Of a stretch of DNA of 43,124 nt, positions 7,273 through 22,750 are shown piece after piece. How positions within the stretch are numbered: position 1 is the first letter of the stretch; every line of letters begins with the position of its first letter. The translations under genes and the position numbers were made by a program. Source of the DNA: Bacteroidota bacterium (GTDB taxonomy: Bacteria; Bacteroidota; Bacteroidia; AKYH767-A; 2013-40CM-41-45); assembly GCA_026391945.1 (NCBI GenBank), contig JAPLDA010000043.1, forward strand, positions 1-43,124. The letters are read 5' to 3'. The notes below the pieces were generated by a model, which made no database searches, was not told the DNA's origin, and saw only the letters and a list, made by a program, of their open reading frames with translations.

Positions 7273-7314
7273 TATTGGGTGTTCAGTAATGCGTATTGGG
7301 TATTGAGATAAGAT
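7273..7314. repeat. Degenerate 21-bp tandem repeat
   Basis: TATTGGGT recurs at 7273 and 7294 with partly matching sequence after it, filling the gap between paaZ and the 149-aa gene. The match is loose, but it is of the same G/T-rich type as the repeat at 13176-13223. Confidence 0.35.
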
Positions 7315-9359
7315 TATTGTTTAGACGCTACGAGTGTTAAGACTGTTTCCACAGCCACTGTTTCATTTCGCTGATTGGAGACAACCACATCCCATTCGAC
7401 AACTCCTTGCGGAATTTGTCCTTCCCGGTTTTCTTTTTTCGTTTTTGTTTTACACGTTAGTTTAACGCCGATGGTATCGCCCACATAAACGGGTTGTGTG
7501 AAACGAAGATTATCCAGTCCGTAGTTGGCGAGTACGGGACCTTTTTTCGGATCCACGAACAGACCGGCAGCAGCAGCGATCACGAAGTAACCATGAGCCA
7601 CGCGTTTTTCAAAGATACTTCCTTCCAGGGCTGTTTCATCGGTATGAGCATAAAAGAAATCACCGCTGATACCGGCGAAGTTGACGATGTCGGCTTCGGT
7701 GACGGTGCGCCTATGTGTAACGAGCGTATCGCCGACCTGTATCTCTTCAAAATATTTTCTGAACGGATGGATGATGTCTTCTTTTGTTTCAGCTCCCGGG
7801 AGATAGGTATTCATGATGTGCATGAGCGTGGTGGGTGATCCCTGCAAGGCCGTCCGCTGCATGTAATGCTTCACACCTCTCATTCCTCCCATTTCCTCTC
7901 CTCCTCCTGCACGGCCGGGGCCGCCATGAACGAGATGAGGTAACGGGGAACCATGACCGGTTGATTCTGCCGCGCAATGCCTGTTGATCACCACCATTCT
8001 TCCATGCATGGATGCGGAACCAAGCACCACTTCTTTCGCAAATGTATCGTCGGCAGTAAACACAGAACCCACGAGACTTCCTTTTCCCATCTTGGCAAGT
8101 TCAGCGGCTTCAGCGGATGTTTTGTATGACATCACCGTATTCACCGGTCCGAATGCTTCGACTTCATGAGGTTCTTTTTTCTTAAACGGATCGTTGCAGA
8201 AAAGCAGCATGGACGACATGAACGCTCCGCGTTTGCTATCCGCACCAACCACTTCTACATTTTCGAGATCGCCGTACACCAGTTCGCAGGCGTTCATCAG
8301 TTCTTTCACTTTTGCTTTTACATCCTTCACCTGACCTAAGTTGGCAAGAGGACCCATCCTCACACCTTCTACTGCCGGATCACCGATGACATTGTTCTTC
8401 AGTTTTTCTTTTAATGCATTGAGTACAGCATCGGCGAGGTTTGCCGGCACAATCGTTCTGCGGATGGCCGTACATTTTTGTCCGGCTTTCACCGTCATCT
8501 CACGCGTCACTTCTTTGATAAACAATTTGAACTCCTCTGTATCGGGCGTTGCATCGGTACCCAGTATGCAGCAGTTGAGCGAATCAGCTTCCATGTTAAA
8601 CCTCACCGAATTTTCGATGACGGCCGGATGCCGCTTCAGCATTTTTCCTGTTTCAGCAGAACCGGTGAAGGTGACTACATCCTGGCAGGTGACATGCTCC
8701 AGTAAATTTCCGGCGCTGCCACAGATGAGTTGCAATGCGCCTTCAGGCAAGATGCTGGAAGAAATTATTTCACGTGTAACCACTTCGGTGAGAAAAGAAG
8801 TGGCCGTTGCAGGTTTTACAATCGCCGGAACACCGGCCAGCAGGTTCACTGCTATTTTTTCCAACATTCCCCAAACAGGGAAGTTGAATGCGTTGATGTG
8901 GATGGCAACGCCTTCGAGTGGAACACAGATATGATGACCGACAAAAGTTCCTCCTTTGGAAATCATTTCCATGTTTCCATCCACGTAAAAAGTTTCATCA
9001 GGAAGTTCGCGTCTGCCTTTGCTTGCATACACGAACAGGTTCCCGATCCCGCCATCGATATCAATCCATGAATCTGTTTTGGTGGCACCTGTAACCGCGC
9101 TTATGGAGTAAAAATCTTTTTTCTTTTCGTTGAGATGCATGGCCAGCGCTTTCAGCATGCGGGCACGTTCGTGAAAAGTCATCCTGCGAAGTTTCGGTCC
9201 GCCGGTTTTTCGTGCATAGTCGAGCATCCCTTTAAAATCAAGGCCTTCACTGGAAGCAATGTAAAGCTGATCGCCGGTTACCGCATGGAAAATAGCAGTA
9301 CCAGAACCGGTACCTTCAGACCAATTTCCTTGAGAAAAGTTTTTCAGCTTGACTGGCAT
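7314..9359 (-). CDS. paaZ: PaaZ: oxepin-CoA hydrolase / semialdehyde dehydrogenase
   Basis: A two-domain protein of the PaaZ family: an N-terminal aldehyde dehydrogenase domain (residues about 1-515) and a C-terminal MaoC-type hot-dog hydratase (about 540-680). PaaZ opens the oxepin ring of phenylacetyl-CoA degradation and oxidises the resulting aldehyde with NADP. The dehydrogenase has the catalytic pair Glu257 (NMEADSLN) and Cys296 (AGQKC), one residue off from E. coli PaaZ E256 and C295. The hydratase has the Asp and His of [12 protein letters not shown] take the ATG at 9359 (MPVKLKNF), giving 681 aa, the length of E. coli PaaZ; a TTG four codons upstream is less likely. A well-matched promoter lies at 9409-9438. 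Other paa genes (paaABCDE, paaJ, paaH, paaK) are not in the window. Confidence 0.93.
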
Positions 9360-9393
9360 CGAGTGGGTCAATGAGTTAAAGAAGTAATAAATA

Positions 9394-9438: not shown

Positions 9439-9547
9439 GAAGTTATTAACAGATGTTGATAAGTAGGTCATTTCCAGGCTTTGTTTGAAGCCGGGAGCAT
9501 CCTGCCGGGACAAAAAAAATTTCGTTTCATTTTCCCATCTTTATCCC

Positions 9548-10603
9548 ATGGACTTTGGCTCAGAGATCATTCGCTGGTATCACCTCAACAAACGTGATCT
9601 TCCATGGAGGAATACGAGGGATCCGTACAGGATCTGGTTGTCGGAAATCATCCTCCAGCAAACCCGTGTTGACCAGGGATTGGCCTATTATCACCGGTTT
9701 ATTGAGAAATACCCGGATATTAAAAAATTAGCCAAAGCAAAAGAGGATGATGTCCTCAAATTATGGCAGGGGCTCGGGTATTACACGAGGGCGAGAAACC
9801 TTCATCATACGGCAAGGGAAATTGTAAAGAAGCATGATGGAAAATTTCCCGATGATGAAAAACAACTGCGTTCATTAAAGGGAATCGGCGACTACACCTG
9901 CGGAGCCATCCTGTCGTTTGCCTTCCATAAAAAATTTCCGGTGGTGGATGGAAACGTATTCAGGTTGCTGAGCAGATTCAACGGGATCAAAACCCCGATC
10001 AATTCCCAAAAGGCAAAAAAAGAATTTTATGCTCTTGCAGGCGAACTCATGGAACACCATCAACCGCATGATTTCAACCAGGCCATCATGGAATTCGGAA
10101 GCAGGCAATGCAAACCGCAAAATCCTGATTGCATCAACTGCGTGTTGAATGCCGGCTGCTTTGCCTTTTCAAAAAAGAAAGTGAACAGCCTGCCTGTCAA
10201 AATTCAAAAGAAAAAAACAAGGAAACGATTTTTTAATTACATCGTCATACATCAGCAGGGAAAAATAGTTTTCAAAAAAAGAACCGGGAAAGATATCTGG
10301 AAAAACCTGTTCGACTTTCCGCTTGTTGAAACTTCCTCCAGCATCAGAATAGAAAAACTTGCAACCAGCAACGAATGGAAAAAACTATTCGGAAAAACCG
10401 GGACCAGCATTGTTTCCGTGAGCAGAAACTACAGGCATCTTCTCAGCCATCAGCAGATTCATGCGCGGTTCATTACCGTGAATTTAAAAGTCAGCAAAAT
10501 GTTCATCTCAAGAAACAAATTCAAACCGGTTTCAGAAAACAACCTGGGACAACTTGCTGTTCCTAAACTGGTTGAAAATTTTTTAAAAAACGAAATGGAG
10601 TAA
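9548..10603 (+). CDS. mutY: A/G-specific adenine DNA glycosylase MutY
   Basis: MutY removes adenine mispaired with 8-oxoguanine. Counted from the ATG at 9548 the protein is 351 aa. It has the catalytic Glu in LSEIILQQTRV, the helix-hairpin-helix LKGIGDYTCGAI, the catalytic Asp in VVDGNVFRLLSR, the four-cysteine iron-sulfur loop with C-x6-C-x2-C-x5-C spacing (from CKPQNPDC on), and a C-terminal NUDIX-like domain for 8-oxoG recognition. An earlier in-frame TTG at 9485 adds 21 residues before the conserved MDFGSEIIRWY start and is not favoured. mutY, ssb and gldE/gldD in this order are a common arrangement in Bacteroidota. Confidence 0.95.
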   Translation: MDFGSEIIRWYHLNKRDLPWRNTRDPYRIWLSEIILQQTRVDQGLAYYHRFIEKYPDIKKLAKAKEDDVLKLWQGLGYYTRARNLHHTAREIVKKHDGKFPDDEKQLRSLKGIGDYTCGAILSFAFHKKFPVVDGNVFRLLSRFNGIKTPINSQKAKKEFYALAGELMEHHQPHDFNQAIMEFGSRQCKPQNPDCINCVLNAGCFAFSKKKVNSLPVKIQKKKTRKRFFNYIVIHQQGKIVFKKRTGKDIWKNLFDFPLVETSSSIRIEKLATSNEWKKLFGKTGTSIVSVSRNYRHLLSHQQIHARFITVNLKVSKMFISRNKFKPVSENNLGQLAVPKLVENFLKNEME

Positions 10604-10684: not shown

Positions 10685-11110
10685 ATGAGTGGAATTAACA
10701 AAGTAATTTTAGTCGGACACGTGGGCAAAGACCCGGAAGTCCGTTACCTTGAAGGTGGTGTTGCCGTTGCAAGATTTTCCATGGCTACATCGGAATCCTA
10801 CAAAAACAAAGAAGGCAACAAAGTGGAACAAACCGAATGGCACAACATCACGGTTTGGCGTGGCCTTGCTGAGGTTGTTGAGAAGTATGTAAAGAAAGGA
10901 CAACTTCTTTACATCGAAGGAAAAATCCGGAACCGTACCGTCGGCGAAGGTGACAACAAAAAATACTACACGGATATCATTGCCGACAACATGACGATGC
11001 TTGGGGGAGGCGGTAACCGTGAAAAGGGTACGATGGTTATTGAATCAAAACCGATCGAAACTCCTCTTCCGGCTGCTTCTGCGGAACCGGGCGATGACCT
11101 GCCGTTCTAA
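10685..11110 (+). CDS. ssb: Single-stranded DNA-binding protein
   Basis: The 141-aa protein has an N-terminal OB fold (MSGINKVILVGHVGKDPEVRY, then ARFSMATSESYKNKEGNK, TEWHNITVWRGLAEVVEKYVKKG) and ends in the acidic DDLPF tip that binds partner proteins of replication and repair. It coats ssDNA as a tetramer. It has its own promoter (10610-10640) and its own terminator (11131-11172), making it a one-gene transcript between mutY and gldE. Confidence 0.97.
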   Translation: MSGINKVILVGHVGKDPEVRYLEGGVAVARFSMATSESYKNKEGNKVEQTEWHNITVWRGLAEVVEKYVKKGQLLYIEGKIRNRTVGEGDNKKYYTDIIADNMTMLGGGGNREKGTMVIESKPIETPLPAASAEPGDDLPF

Positions 11111-11213: not shown

Positions 11214-13169
11214 TTGGACCCTTCGAGCAGCCATTTTTTTTTCCTTCGGATTTTACTTCAGCCGCCGGCCGGAATCATCAACCCCACTTTTTACATCAGC
11301 GCCGGTTTTATCCTTGAACTTATTTTCCTGTTCGTGCTTCTTTCCGCTTCCGGTTTTATTTCCGGAGCCGAAACAGCTTTCTTCGCCATTACCCCGACAC
11401 AACTGGCACACCTGAAGAATTCGAAGACCACTACCAGCAGAGTCGTTCACCAGTTGCTGAATACGCCGAAGCGGCTGCTGGCAACATTGCTCATCGCCAT
11501 CAACTTTGTGAACATCGCCATCATCGTATTTTCTTCGGTACTCATTTCACAGATATTTATTTTCGACGGGCATGAAGTGGCCGGCTTTATTATCCAGGTG
11601 GTTGCCGTAACGTTTGTGATCGTGGTCTTCTGCGAAGTGCTTCCAAAAGTGTATGCAACACAAAATGCTTTGCGAACCGCTCACCGGAGCGTTTACGTGA
11701 TTTTTGCACTTGATAAACTGCTGCGTCCATTCAGTGCTTTGCTGGTGCTTTCAACCTCTTTCGTTGACAAGCGCATTCACCTGAAAGGGTATGATGTAAC
11801 GGTGGATGAACTGACACATGCCATCGATATCACGTCCAACAAAGATACTCCCGAAGAAGAAAAAAAGATACTCAAAGGGATCGCACGATTCGGGAACATT
11901 GATGTGAAACAGATCATGAAGCCGAGGATGGATGTCATTTCGTTTGACAAGGAAATGAAATTCCCGGAGCTCTTTTCCCAGGTTCTCGAACACCGTTATT
12001 CGCGGATTCCCGTTTACACGAACACCTTCGACAGCATTGCAGGAATTCTTTACATCAAAGATCTGCTTCCTTACCTCGATAAACAGCAAACGGATTTTGA
12101 ATGGCAGAAACTGATCCGCCCCGCTTATTTTGTTCCGGAAAGCAAAAAGATAAATGACCTCCTCCAGGAATTCCAGGAGAAAAAAAATCATCTTGCCATC
12201 GTGGTGGATGAATACGGCGGATCATCAGGAATTGTGACCATGGAAGATATCCTGGAAGAAATTGTGGGAGAAATCAATGATGAGTTCGATGAAGAAGAAC
12301 TGGTTTTTTCAAAACTCGATGAACTAAATTATGTGTTTGAAGGGAAAACACTGCTGAATGATGTTTGCCGCGTGATGGAAGTGGACCGGAAAATTTTTGA
12401 CATCGGTAACGAAGAAGTGGATACCCTTGCCGGCTTGATCCTGGAACTGAAAGGAAGCATTCCGTATAAATTCGAAGTGGTGAAATTCAATGACATCGCG
12501 TTCACCATCGAATCGGCTGACAGGAGAAGAATAAAACGGGTGAAGATTACACTGCCTGAAAAAAAAGAAGGATCACCCGGGAACCCGGTACGAGGCATCA
12601 CGTTGCTTTCTGTTTTTTTTCTTCTTGCTTCCATTTTACTCTCGTCCTGCGACGAGGAATTTGTTCCCAAGCCAAGAGGTTACTTCAGGATTTCATTCCC
12701 GGAGAAAAAATACATTCCCTACACTCCTGCCGACTGCCCGTTTGCATTTGATGTTCCGGCTTATACCCAGGTGGTGCGCGATACCGAAGCCCGTGCCGAG
12801 CCATGCTGGATGGATATCCGGTTCAACAACTTCAGGGGAACGTTGTACATCAGTTACAAGGAAGTGAATCACAACCTCCGGCAGTTCATGGAAGACAGCC
12901 GTACGCTGGCGTTGAAGCACATTCCAAAAGCATCGGGCATTGATGAAATACAAATCCAGGTTCCGGAAAACCATGTGTACGGAACACGTTATGATGTGAA
13001 AGGAAACGCCGCTTCTCCGATCCAGTTTTTCATCACCGACAGCACCAGGCATTTTCTCCGTGCTTCGCTTTATTTTTATGCTTCACCGAATTCCGATTCC
13101 ATCGCACCGGTTCTTAAATTCATCAGCAGCGACATTGATCATTTGCTTGCTACGTTTCGATGGAAATAA
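11214..13169 (+). CDS. gldE-gldD: GldE-GldD fusion: CorC/CBS protein joined to gliding lipoprotein
   Basis: One open frame holds two proteins normally made separately. Residues 1 to about 450 are GldE: a DUF21/CNNM membrane domain (about 25-200), a CBS pair (about 215-340) and a CorC_HlyC domain (about 355-445). After a short linker (EKKEGSPGNPVRG) a lipoprotein signal follows (LLSVFFLLASILLSSC, lipobox Cys479 at 12648-12650), then about 170 residues of GldD. Both are needed for gliding and T9SS function in flavobacteria. The first start is a TTG at 11214; an in-frame stop at 11172 excludes a longer form, and no ATG lies between. The GldD part has no ATG or GTG near its signal; only a TTG at 12603 could start it separately. 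As a fusion, the lipoprotein signal would be a membrane span leading from cytosolic CBS/CorC domains to periplasmic GldD, which is topologically sensible. Confidence 0.85.
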   Translation: MDPSSSHFFFLRILLQPPAGIINPTFYISAGFILELIFLFVLLSASGFISGAETAFFAITPTQLAHLKNSKTTTSRVVHQLLNTPKRLLATLLIAINFVNIAIIVFSSVLISQIFIFDGHEVAGFIIQVVAVTFVIVVFCEVLPKVYATQNALRTAHRSVYVIFALDKLLRPFSALLVLSTSFVDKRIHLKGYDVTVDELTHAIDITSNKDTPEEEKKILKGIARFGNIDVKQIMKPRMDVISFDKEMKFPELFSQVLEHRYSRIPVYTNTFDSIAGILYIKDLLPYLDKQQTDFEWQKLIRPAYFVPESKKINDLLQEFQEKKNHLAIVVDEYGGSSGIVTMEDILEEIVGEINDEFDEEELVFSKLDELNYVFEGKTLLNDVCRVMEVDRKIFDIGNEEVDTLAGLILELKGSIPYKFEVVKFNDIAFTIESADRRRIKRVKITLPEKKEGSPGNPVRGITLLSVFFLLASILLSSCDEEFVPKPRGYFRISFPEKKYIPYTPADCPFAFDVPAYTQVVRDTEARAEPCWMDIRFNNFRGTLYISYKEVNHNLRQFMEDSRTLALKHIPKASGIDEIQIQVPENHVYGTRYDVKGNAASPIQFFITDSTRHFLRASLYFYASPNSDSIAPVLKFISSDIDHLLATFRWK

Positions 13170-16951: not shown

Positions 16952-19900
16952 TTGAAAACTAAACTGAAACGAATCCTGATACAAACAGCATTCCCGGCAA
17001 TCGTCGGGATGCTTTCAGTATTTGTATTCCCGGCACGTTTAACGGCGACTCCGCAGGCTTCATTCAATGCAGATCATACAGCAGGGTGTAACCCGCTGAA
17101 TGTTCAGTTCACCAGCACGTCAACAGGAGCAGTTTCCTATTACTGGGATCTTGGAAACGGAAACACTTCTACCCTTCCGAATCCTTCTATGTTATATACC
17201 CTTCCAGGCAGCTTCAACATATCGCTGGTGGTCACCGATGCTTCCGGCATCACCGACACGCTGATCCGGAACAACTACATCAATGTGGTTGGAGAACCCA
17301 ATGCTGATTTCGTTTGCGCTACCACATCATCCTGCCTGGACAACAACCTGTTCACGTTTAACAATACCTCCACGGGAGGATTCACTTACTTATGGGATTT
17401 CGGTGATGGAACCACATCCACACAAATGAGTCCGAGCCATCAATACACAATGACAGGCTCATTCACCATTACCCTGATCGCAAGAAATTTTTATGGCTGT
17501 GAAAATGTAAGGATCCGAAACCTGTACGTCACCGTCTTTCCAAGGCCGGTGGCGACCATTTTAACCAACGCCACATCGAGTTGTGACCCGTGGTCGGTAT
17601 TTAATTTCAGCTCATCAGGATCCAGCATCACTTCCTGGCACTGGGCATTCGGTGACGGAACTTCTTCAGGCCAGCCAAACCCCAGCCACGTTTATGGAAT
17701 ATCCGGAACATTCCCGGTTTCCCTGGTTGTGATCGATAACCATGGCTGTACGGATACCACCGACCAATCAACCATCATTCATGTCGGAACGTCTCATTGG
17801 GCAAGTTTCAGCCAGAACACCGACAGTGGTTGTGCTCCGCTCACAGTTAACTTCTATAATTCAAATTTAAATGCATCAACAAGTGTCTGGAATTTCGGTG
17901 ACGGCGGTACATCGACTCAGATCGCACCTTCACATGTTTACAACAATCCCGGGATTTATACGGTAAGTCTTATTGTTACAACATCAAGCGGATGTATTGA
18001 CACAGTCATTCATCCCAATGCCATACAGGCTGGCATTCAGCCGACGGCTAATTTTACATTTTCAAACGGAACCGGTTGCGCTCCTTTCCCGGTTCATTTC
18101 ACCAACACGTCAACCAATTATGCAACCTGTCAATGGAATTTCGGTGACGGCACCACTTCCAATTCATCCAACCCGACACATTCCTATACCGCCAACGGTA
18201 TATACAGCGTTACGCTCACCGTTTACGGTCCAACCGGCTGCTCCAAAAGCAAGTCGCTGGCGAACATCATCAATGTATCTTCTGCTCATGCATTGTTTAT
18301 TGCCAATCCAAGGATCGGCTGTCCGCCAATGACGGTTAATTTCACAAGCGCCTCCTACGGAAACCAACTCAGTTACTCATGGGATTTCGGTGACGGAGTC
18401 ACCTCCACTTCACCAAATCCATCTCACGTTTACACTACATCAGGAAGTTTTGATGTGACCCTAGTCGTCACCGATTCATTGGGATGCACCGACACGCTGG
18501 TAAAACCCTCTTATATCCAGACATCAAATCCTTCCTTAGGATATATACCTCCACCGACAACTTCCGGTTGTGCTCCGGTAACAGCACAGTTTACGGATGG
18601 AACAATGGGATCGGTTGCATGGTTCTGGGATTTCGGTGACGGAACTACTTCGACGTTGCAAAATCCATTGCATATCTATACAACACCAGGTAATTACTCG
18701 GTAACATTAACCACGCAGTCAGCAGGTGGTGGCTGCACTCAAACAATCAACAACTTCAGTTCCTTTGATGTGAAAGGTGGATTTGCCGGATTCACACATA
18801 CCGAAACTCCTTGTCCGCCTTATGAATCAGTATTCACCGATACTTCCCTGAATGCCGTTGCCTGGTTTTGGGATTTCGGTGATGGGACAACTTCTACTGC
18901 ACAAAATCCGGCTCATACTTTTTCCGATCCCGGGTATCACAGTGTTACGCTAACCATTACAACTTCCGATGGATGCACGTATACAACGATGCAAAACAAC
19001 GGCGTTTATTTCCAGCCGTTCGGAGCAAATTTTTATGGCATCCCGACAGGAACTACGTTCCCAATGGTGGTTGACTTTCACGCCAACTCAGTGGGAGCCA
19101 CCGGCTGGTTCTGGACGTTTGGTGACAGCACCTCATCCACTCTTGAAAATCCAAGCCATACCTATCCTGTATTCGGAAATTATAACGTCACCCTTACCAT
19201 TACAAACGGAGCCTGTACACTTACGTATGCACCTCCACCATTCAATTTCGGATTGCCTGATACCACGCCTGTACCCACAGGAAATCCTGGTATGCCCGGC
19301 GAACAGCAAGGATGTGCACCGCTGTCGGTTTCCTTCAGTAATGTTGTGGCAGGATCTGTTCTATGGCATTGGGAATTTGGAGATGGTGATACCTCTACTG
19401 CCCAGTTTCCACTGCATACATATTATATACCGGGCATCTATACGGTTACCCTGACAACCTACGATTCTTTAGGCCTGTCTTCGGTATTTGTGATGGATAG
19501 CATTGTGAAAGTCTCCGGGCCGAAGGCATTGTTTTCCTTTCAGCAAAATTCAAGTTGCACTTCCACGCAGATAACCTTTACCGATTCATCCACGGGAGCC
19601 ATCAACAACTGGTCATGGAATCTTGGTGACGGAACTTTTGCTTTCACTCAAAATGTCACACATACTTATTCCGGCAGCATGCCGAATTACATCATCACGC
19701 ATACTGTTTTTGACACACTCGGTTGTTCAAGCACTATTTCGACAAGCATCTTTGCAAATTTCATCAGTCCGCTCCTGGTGAGCGAGTCTGAAATCTGCGG
19801 ATTCGATACCGTCCATTTCACCACCAGCCTCCGGAATTTCGCTTCCTACCTCTGGGATTTCGGCGATGGAACATCGGATACGATTTGTGAACCGTCGCAT

Positions 19901-22750
19901 TTGTATCAAACCGAAGGTGTTTTTCATGCATCGGTAACGGTTACTGACAGTTCCGGGTGCTCGCAGACATTCACGGTATCTCCTCCGATAACGGTTAGTC
20001 TCCCGCTTTCCAATTTCACAGTGAACGGAACACGTCATGGTTGCGGAAGATCACGTGTTGATTTCATCAACCTGTCGGTGAACTCCGATTCTTACTTCTG
20101 GGATTTCGGGGACGGTTATACATCCAGCAACCAGGCACCTTCACACATCTATAATACAGCCGGAAGCTATACGGTATCGCTGACAGTTTACAGGGGACAA
20201 TGCGTATCAAACCTCACCATGCCGCACTATATAACCATCGACACGGCTTATGCGGCCTTCTCATCTGTTGTGGACGGAATCTGCATGCCGGTGACCATGA
20301 CGTTTACCGATTTAAGTGCCTACCCGGTTGCATGGTTCTGGAATTTCGGAAACGGTGACACCTCGACACTGCAAAACCCGGTGATCACTTACCTGACACC
20401 CCCGGGAGCCAATGTATCATTGACCATCACGGACATTCATGGTTGTACTTCAACAGCCTATCACACACCGATGGCGCCTATGATTGCAGACTTTAATGTA
20501 GCCAGCGATTCAGGATGTGCGCCGTTTACAACCCAGTTTACCGATCACTCCAATCTTTCTCAGAGATGGTTCTGGGATTTTGGCGATGGCGATACCTCAA
20601 CTGTGAGAAACCCGAATCATACCTACCAGAACCCCGGATCCTATACGGTGATGCTCGTGGTTTATTCTGACCCATACTATCATTGCACGGATACGCTGGT
20701 GATGCCACAACTGATAAAAGTCAAACATCCTGTTGCTGATTTCTCAACACCGGATCTTTCGGCCTGTGCGCCATCGCTCGTAAACTTCACTGGCCATGCC
20801 GTTGACGCCGACAACTACCTGTGGGATTTCGGCGACAGCACGACCTCCACCAATCAAAACCCATCGCATATATATAACAGGCCGGGTATATATACTGTTT
20901 CCCTCATCGCCCTGAACAGCCTGGGATGTGCCGATACACTGGTTAAACATCAATATGTTTATGTGCTTGGGTCTATCACCAATTTCACGCCTTCAGCATA
21001 CTCAGGATGCAACCCGTTCAATGTAACGTTTACTGATTTATCGCAGGGAGCCATCGACTGGACATGGAGTTTCGGTGACGGTTATTCAACCACGCAACCA
21101 AGCCCGGTGCATCTTTACCAGGATACAGGTTCCTATACGGTTGCGCTCGTAACCCATGATACGGCGGGATGCGCATCCTATTATGAATTGCCACAGGAAA
21201 TTTTTGTTCACCCGACGCCAGTAGCATCCTTCATGACCAACGACAGTGCTGGTTGCCAGCCTTACCAAGTAACCTTCAGCAACACTTCCCTCAGCAGCGA
21301 TTCTTCTTATTGGGATTTTGGTGACGGAGCCACTTCGACCAGCAGGGATCCCGTGCATACCTATACAACACCTGGAATTTACCCGGTTTATCTTGTTACC
21401 ACCAACCAATTCGGTTGCACCGATACGTTTGTATTGAATCACCCGATCATCGTGAAAGCCACGCCTCAGCCCGCTTTCACCGTCGATACCACGCAGGGTT
21501 GCGCCGGCCTCTCGGCACAATTCCATGACTTATCGGCTAACCTCATCCAGCCATCTTATTCGTGGGATTTCGGAAACGGCAACACTTCCGTTTTGCAAAA
21601 TCCGCCTGTGCAGTTCACCAATCCAGGGTTTTATGACATTACCTTAACCATCACCAATTCGAACGGGTGCAGCAATTCGGTGATGTATCCTGCATACATC
21701 CATGTATTTGATACTTTGCCGCCGCCAATTTCAGAAATACTGAGTGTTTCTGTCACCTCCAATACGTCCATAGAAATCACCTGGGAAAACAACCCGGCCA
21801 TCGACCTTGGCGCATATATACTTTATAGATTTAACCCGTCAACCAATGTATATGACAATATATTCAGGATCGACAACCCTAACAACACCGGCTTCTCCCT
21901 GAACCCGACCTACATTGATTCGGGATTGAATACACTTCAGAATACGTATACCTATAAATTGCAGTCACTCGACATTTGCGGTTACACAATCGGGCTTGAC
22001 CAGCTCAACCCGCATACATCCATCAATGTTACCTCGCAGCGTGCAGGACAGTTCATCAAGGTATGGTGGAATTCGTATGGAGGATGCCCGGTGAACACGT
22101 ATGAAATCTTCCGTTCTCATCCCGGCAGCTCCCTGCAATGGATTGCTTCTGTTCCTTATTTCCAGCTTACCTATTTTGATACCATGTTCGATTGCCCTTA
22201 CCAGTACTCTTATAAAATCATGGCCACCGATTTATGCGGCCGCCCTTATATTTCGAACAGTGATACTTCTGCCACGGAACCCTTTAATTTCCTGGCCAAC
22301 CAGGTAGTGGATGTAGTCCGGTCGACGGTTGTAGATAATCAAACCGTGCTCACCGAATGGCTGCAACCGGTTGTTCATCCTGAAAAAGTTGCGCAGTTCG
22401 AAATCTACCGTTCCACCGACAGCATTAATTTCTCTTACCAGGCAACGGTTCCGTCGATACAAACCGATTACATAGATTATCATGCAGACGTACAGAACAA
22501 CCATTACTACTACCGGATCAAAGTCGTGAACACCTGCGACATCTATGAAGATCCAAGTACCAACACGTCCACGATACTGCTGAAAGGTGAAATGCATGAC
22601 GACCGAACCGTACACCTGAACTGGTCGCCATACACCGGCTGGGATAGCGGCGTGGATTATTATATCATCGAAGTGCTGGATGAAAACGGACAATGGCAAT
22701 TCCTCAAACAAGTGGAAGGATGCACGACTCATTACGTTTACCAGCAATAA
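16952..22750 (+). CDS. Giant secreted protein with 19 PKD repeats
   Basis: A 1932-aa surface protein. The start is a TTG at 16952; no in-frame ATG precedes the signal peptide (ILIQTAFPAIVGMLSVFVFP, cleaved near ARLTA). Residues about 30-1585 hold 19 PKD domains, each marked by a W-x-FGDG-type core with T/S-rich turn and a GxYxVxL strand, plus paired Cys around SGCAP and GCxDT that probably form one disulfide per domain. From about 1586 to the end there are three Fn3-like modules. Proteins of this architecture are T9SS cargo used in adhesion or gliding and normally end in a type B sorting domain (the gliding motility-associated C-terminal domain). This one stops after TTHYVYQQ with no such domain. 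Confidence 0.88.
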   Translation: MKTKLKRILIQTAFPAIVGMLSVFVFPARLTATPQASFNADHTAGCNPLNVQFTSTSTGAVSYYWDLGNGNTSTLPNPSMLYTLPGSFNISLVVTDASGITDTLIRNNYINVVGEPNADFVCATTSSCLDNNLFTFNNTSTGGFTYLWDFGDGTTSTQMSPSHQYTMTGSFTITLIARNFYGCENVRIRNLYVTVFPRPVATILTNATSSCDPWSVFNFSSSGSSITSWHWAFGDGTSSGQPNPSHVYGISGTFPVSLVVIDNHGCTDTTDQSTIIHVGTSHWASFSQNTDSGCAPLTVNFYNSNLNASTSVWNFGDGGTSTQIAPSHVYNNPGIYTVSLIVTTSSGCIDTVIHPNAIQAGIQPTANFTFSNGTGCAPFPVHFTNTSTNYATCQWNFGDGTTSNSSNPTHSYTANGIYSVTLTVYGPTGCSKSKSLANIINVSSAHALFIANPRIGCPPMTVNFTSASYGNQLSYSWDFGDGVTSTSPNPSHVYTTSGSFDVTLVVTDSLGCTDTLVKPSYIQTSNPSLGYIPPPTTSGCAPVTAQFTDGTMGSVAWFWDFGDGTTSTLQNPLHIYTTPGNYSVTLTTQSAGGGCTQTINNFSSFDVKGGFAGFTHTETPCPPYESVFTDTSLNAVAWFWDFGDGTTSTAQNPAHTFSDPGYHSVTLTITTSDGCTYTTMQNNGVYFQPFGANFYGIPTGTTFPMVVDFHANSVGATGWFWTFGDSTSSTLENPSHTYPVFGNYNVTLTITNGACTLTYAPPPFNFGLPDTTPVPTGNPGMPGEQQGCAPLSVSFSNVVAGSVLWHWEFGDGDTSTAQFPLHTYYIPGIYTVTLTTYDSLGLSSVFVMDSIVKVSGPKALFSFQQNSSCTSTQITFTDSSTGAINNWSWNLGDGTFAFTQNVTHTYSGSMPNYIITHTVFDTLGCSSTISTSIFANFISPLLVSESEICGFDTVHFTTSLRNFASYLWDFGDGTSDTICEPSHLYQTEGVFHASVTVTDSSGCSQTFTVSPPITVSLPLSNFTVNGTRHGCGRSRVDFINLSVNSDSYFWDFGDGYTSSNQAPSHIYNTAGSYTVSLTVYRGQCVSNLTMPHYITIDTAYAAFSSVVDGICMPVTMTFTDLSAYPVAWFWNFGNGDTSTLQNPVITYLTPPGANVSLTITDIHGCTSTAYHTPMAPMIADFNVASDSGCAPFTTQFTDHSNLSQRWFWDFGDGDTSTVRNPNHTYQNPGSYTVMLVVYSDPYYHCTDTLVMPQLIKVKHPVADFSTPDLSACAPSLVNFTGHAVDADNYLWDFGDSTTSTNQNPSHIYNRPGIYTVSLIALNSLGCADTLVKHQYVYVLGSITNFTPSAYSGCNPFNVTFTDLSQGAIDWTWSFGDGYSTTQPSPVHLYQDTGSYTVALVTHDTAGCASYYELPQEIFVHPTPVASFMTNDSAGCQPYQVTFSNTSLSSDSSYWDFGDGATSTSRDPVHTYTTPGIYPVYLVTTNQFGCTDTFVLNHPIIVKATPQPAFTVDTTQGCAGLSAQFHDLSANLIQPSYSWDFGNGNTSVLQNPPVQFTNPGFYDITLTITNSNGCSNSVMYPAYIHVFDTLPPPISEILSVSVTSNTSIEITWENNPAIDLGAYILYRFNPSTNVYDNIFRIDNPNNTGFSLNPTYIDSGLNTLQNTYTYKLQSLDICGYTIGLDQLNPHTSINVTSQRAGQFIKVWWNSYGGCPVNTYEIFRSHPGSSLQWIASVPYFQLTYFDTMFDCPYQYSYKIMATDLCGRPYISNSDTSATEPFNFLANQVVDVVRSTVVDNQTVLTEWLQPVVHPEKVAQFEIYRSTDSINFSYQATVPSIQTDYIDYHADVQNNHYYYRIKVVNTCDIYEDPSTNTSTILLKGEMHDDRTVHLNWSPYTGWDSGVDYYIIEVLDENGQWQFLKQVEGCTTHYVYQQ

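Follow-up and report, generated by a model that had tools for sequence, protein, structure and literature searches.

A recurrent GldE-GldD fusion in the class Bacteroidia, with a predicted internal lipoprotein signal between its two parts

In a 43,124-nucleotide stretch of a Bacteroidota genome (contig JAPLDA010000043.1 of assembly GCA_026391945.1, positions 1 to 43,124; hereafter the window), GldE is joined to GldD in a single open frame of 651 codons (11214-13169, forward strand), and this fusion is a recurrent variant of known genes. According to the reading that we prefer, to which we give a probability of about two in three, the gene encodes a real polyprotein, the internal type II signal of which is predicted to be still lipidated and cut by signal peptidase II (LspA) to yield a normal GldD and a GldE with an extra C-terminal helix. 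The established part of this explanation comprises the fusion, its recurrence, the absence of GldD starts and the conservation of the lipobox cysteine.

The fused frame starts with TTG, and its N-terminus (MDP) is shared with several relatives. The GldE part (residues 39-447) matched NCBIfam model TIGR03520 with 523 bits (cut-off 376; model positions 1-407 of 408), and the GldD part (residues 471-651) matched TIGR03512 with 228 bits (cut-off 120; model positions 2-182 of 182). The description of GldE and GldD as one polypeptide in a first-pass annotation was confirmed by the single frame and by these scores, both above the curated cut-offs; the calculated mass of the fused protein is 74.3 kDa instead of the 73 kDa given there. 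The order of Pfam domains is CNNM (residues 38-215), CBS, CorC_HlyC (367-448) and GldD_lipo. The CNNM/DUF21 transmembrane domain of GldE (11328-11858) has hydrophobic helices near residues 24-55, 86-114 and 119-149, and is followed by the CBS pair and CorC_HlyC (11859-12557, residues about 216-448), which are expected to be cytoplasmic. A variable linker of low model confidence (12558-12593, about residues 449-460) leads to the putative internal lipoprotein signal (12594-12647), a hydrophobic helix of residues 460-478, and then to the mature GldD domain (12648-13166). The lipobox LSSC noted earlier between GldE and GldD was found again at residues 476-479, where it ends the hydrophobic segment, and its Cys, the predicted lipidation and cut site, is residue 479 (12648-12650).

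Upstream of the fused frame lie ssb (10685-11110, forward strand) and, further away, a mutY-like gene with HhH-GPD and NUDIX_4 domains (9485-10603, forward strand); a CtaA/COX15 gene lies downstream on the reverse strand. Elsewhere in the window, the reverse strand encodes an aldehyde dehydrogenase joined to a MaoC-like domain in a PaaZ-type arrangement (7314-9371), and a protein of 1932 aa in which PKD-like WDFGDG motifs recur many times is encoded a few kb from the fusion (16952-22750).

A search for the same fusion in relatives, suggested in the first-pass annotation, was successful: the open fusion was present in eight of the 11 genomes of the window's family, and a profile of fused proteins gave full-length, stop-free matches in 26 of the 395 genomes sampled from the same class. 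The latter belong to seven families (f1, f8, f9, f14, f25, f31 and f32), all of which also include split relatives. These 26 loci, together with two from the window's family outside the sample (G003 and G008), make up the 28 fused loci studied here. Only the window's own locus was fused above threshold in a phylum-wide sample of 395, and no fusion was found among at least 80 loci listed from named genomes (71 split with both genes, nine with GldE only); split genes are therefore the rule.

The distribution of the two states was mapped on a tree of 87 GldE and GldD pairs, from which the junction was left out and which was built by a quick method with approximate branch supports. Eleven changes between fused and split were needed, at least eight of them forced by starred branches, and the tree does not separate gain from loss of fusion. 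As judged from these sequences, the fusion has evolved repeatedly and recurs in at least seven families of the class. With so many changes of state, fused and split genes look interchangeable, which is simplest if their end products are identical. Of 59 split relatives, 40 have gldD starting upstream of the end of the gldE stop codon, often with a 4-base overlap, and in a further 11 gldD starts no more than 20 bases after that stop; since the split genes mostly overlap already, a small indel that deletes the stop and aligns the frames would suffice for fusion. The close relatives L012 and L199 show both states, L012 being fused and L199 split with an ATGA overlap. An exception to the tight pairing is L224 (genome G064), in which gldE and gldD are on the same strand, more than 1.3 kb apart.

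No ATG able to start GldD occurs in frame before Cys479 in the window. The in-frame start-like codons are a GTG at 12540 (36 codons upstream), which lies within the GldE core, and a TTG at 12603-12605 (15 codons upstream), the sole one near the signal, with no basic residue between it and the Cys; the earlier claim that no ATG or GTG could start GldD alone thus held. An ATG 11-35 codons before the Cys was found in 54 of 59 split but only seven of 28 fused genes (Fisher p 6e-10), and an ATG followed by a basic residue before the Cys in 54 of 59 and two of 28, respectively (Fisher p 5e-15), both p values being only indicative as the sequences are related. Since the split state requires a start by definition, the informative part of this comparison is the loss of the start in fused genes.

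The lipobox Cys was present in all 28 fused proteins, with S, G or A at position -1 in every one (28/28), and on a fused-only tree it underwent 0 changes, versus 7-18 (mean 12.9) at 21 neighbouring columns; in these two counts the Cys was chosen by lipobox score, which favours a small -1 residue, and an independent check was provided by a MAFFT alignment, in which Cys479 was invariant in 23 of 23 rows. In close fused pairs, dN/dS was about 0.03-0.1 for GldE and GldD where computable, and 0.2-1.0 for the linker and signal, which points to strong constraint (purifying selection) on the two domains and to a much looser linker and signal. Among the features of a type II signal, a hydrophobic h-region, a small residue at -1 and Cys at +1 are all present, and an N-terminal location with a start and a basic n-region of its own is absent, the signal being internal. 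R460 is the sole basic residue among the 20 that precede Cys479, and further charge is supplied by the GldE tail. Of 13 fused genomes tested for LspA, 12 contained it, the window's genome among them; the draft genome G130, also fused, gave no LspA match. On whether signal peptidase II would cut at Cys479, the sequence evidence favours yes.

An AF2 model of the fused protein (pTM 0.39), for which the alignment was mostly unpaired, showed no confident GldE-GldD contact or domain arrangement, and placed helix 460-478 between low-confidence or disordered stretches (451-461 and 479-489). One alignment (A4) contained in-frame neighbours with TAA read as Q, purely for alignment depth. Mature GldD was modelled with a pLDDT of 90.5 and resembles the PsbP/Mog1 fold (Foldseek E 6e-6), with Z of 10-11 to BT_1490, LpqN, Mog1 and PsbP. 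A PsbP/Mog1/LpqN-like fold is accordingly predicted with high confidence for mature GldD, and such a shared fold shows no function. By sequence, GldD had no relative among solved structures (all E above 0.1). The GldE part matched structures of the CorC/CNNM magnesium transporter family (4hg0, 7m1u and CNNM4), with which it shares CNNM, the CBS pair and CorC_HlyC; the fused protein differs from this family in the addition of a GldD lipoprotein at the C-terminus. The window's genome carries another CorC-like gene, which is distinct from fused GldE (29% identity).

GldL and GldB, markers of the gliding/T9SS machinery, were found in 17 of 17 fused and split genomes tested for both, and the window's genome carries them. 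In F. johnsoniae, GldD is needed for gliding/T9SS (PMC9127263), and F. psychrophilum and F. columnare seem to lack GldE (PMC5714932). Within the window's order, GldD was found with no GldE match in G022, G024, G025, G027-G030, G032, G034, G037, G039 and G040, which contain at best a CorC-like protein of about 30% identity. GldE thus appears from these searches to have been lost or to be absent while GldD stays in many genomes of the order, and GldD therefore does not strictly need GldE.

An assembly or sequencing artefact, in which a missed stop or indel merged two ordinary genes, was suspected from the homopolymers at the junction, A8 in the linker (about 12559-12566) and T8 in the signal (about 12612-12619). 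The other two frames, however, are free of stops from 12541 to 12865 in one and from 12557 to 12749 in the other, so that a single missed indel near 12560-12600, the cause considered in the first-pass annotation, would not yield a GldE stop before GldD. This frame test covers indels, and a substituted stop would still be compatible with the window sequence taken alone. Since the same open fusion was found in other genomes (at least 28, in seven families), an assembly error is very unlikely, and the homopolymer explanation was rejected. It is also improbable, though to a lesser degree, that ribosomes initiate GldD at TTG 12603, or at a similar weak codon in relatives, and thereby make most GldD separately. 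Positions -3 and -6 of this TTG are occupied by A, as is favourable in F. johnsoniae (PMC6847099), and GldE itself appears to use TTG, but the signal made from TTG 12603 would have only 15 residues and no basic n-region. Moreover, start-like codons of fused relatives have no conserved place and are equally frequent elsewhere in the hydrophobic stretch, and five of the 28 fused genes have no such codon at all 11-35 codons before the Cys. Four fused relatives (L003, L004, L051 and L053) carry an ATG that precedes the Cys by 14 codons, at which a secondary GldD start is conceivable, and leave room for a minor role of this kind.

The more serious competitor, still an unlikely one, is a permanent tether, in which the protein stays uncut, the signal serves as an additional transmembrane segment, and GldD remains attached to GldE in the inner membrane, its Cys perhaps lipidated. 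A single frame without an internal ATG would be expected of such a protein, and the fact that the fusion arose repeatedly is consistent with selection for co-localisation; under this arrangement, however, the Cys and the small -1 residue would drift freely, in contrast to the unchanging Cys, and the lack of a confident GldE-GldD contact in the model and the many genomes with GldD and no detectable GldE also count against it. Slightly less probable again is its most specific form, an uncut chain with lipidated Cys479 that evolved repeatedly and would wire the cytoplasmic CBS/CorC domains to a periplasmic T9SS assembly factor. Alternatively, a need for lipidation alone could maintain the Cys in a protein that is not cut. 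Taken together, the switching between states, the unchanging lipobox Cys, the absence of a confident contact and the occurrence of GldD without GldE fit cutting better than a tether. The same four observations, with at least eight switches of state, leave the earlier proposal that the halves stay together as a complex of fixed stoichiometry unsupported. As for the proposal that the signal serves as a membrane span, the stretch is hydrophobic and can cross from the cytoplasmic C-terminus of GldE, and that part stands; a span that tethers GldD permanently is disfavoured by the conservation of the Cys.

In the preferred reading, that of a polyprotein cut at its internal signal, one ribosome would translate GldE and continue directly into GldD. 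The CNNM helices of GldE would insert in the membrane and the CBS/CorC domain would remain cytoplasmic, and the hydrophobic stretch after GldE would pass outward through the membrane, acting as an internal lipoprotein signal. CorC/CNNM proteins hold their CBS domains in the cytoplasm, and because these relatives do so, the signal after GldE would be correctly oriented, from cytoplasm to periplasm. Lgt would then lipidate Cys479 and LspA would cleave before it, giving, one to one, an ordinary GldD lipoprotein and a GldE that keeps the leftover signal as an extra C-terminal transmembrane helix. The steps that we infer are translation across the junction, translocation, lipidation and cutting.

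The separate gldE and gldD genes of Bacteroidota such as Flavobacterium johnsoniae belong to the same families and have the same order, with lipobox and mature GldD unchanged; there they form two frames, usually overlapping by a few bases, whereas here there is one frame without a GldD start. A further parallel is FbcH of Bradyrhizobium, the precursor of cytochrome b/c1, one chain that is cut in two by signal peptidase I. In both, a polytopic membrane protein leads into an internal signal peptide, behind which lies a periplasmic protein, although cutting is only predicted for GldE-GldD, and FbcH uses signal peptidase I and includes no lipoprotein, whereas the GldE-GldD signal is of type II. 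A literature search of incomplete coverage yielded neither a description of a GldE-GldD fusion nor a report on internal type II signals. Uncommented GldE-GldD entries of about 650 residues may already exist in large protein databases.

To our knowledge, the role of GldE in gliding and type 9 secretion is poorly defined. The unchanging lipid-attachment Cys suggests synthesis of a single long protein that is subsequently cleaved into the two usual products. If LspA cuts the internal lipobox, the fusion would be a natural test of lipoprotein maturation on a signal placed behind a 450-residue membrane protein, and the signal behind GldE would be a case that predictors of N-terminal signal peptides would miss. 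The repeated fusion of GldE and GldD is evolutionary evidence for their joint production, and perhaps for their joint action.
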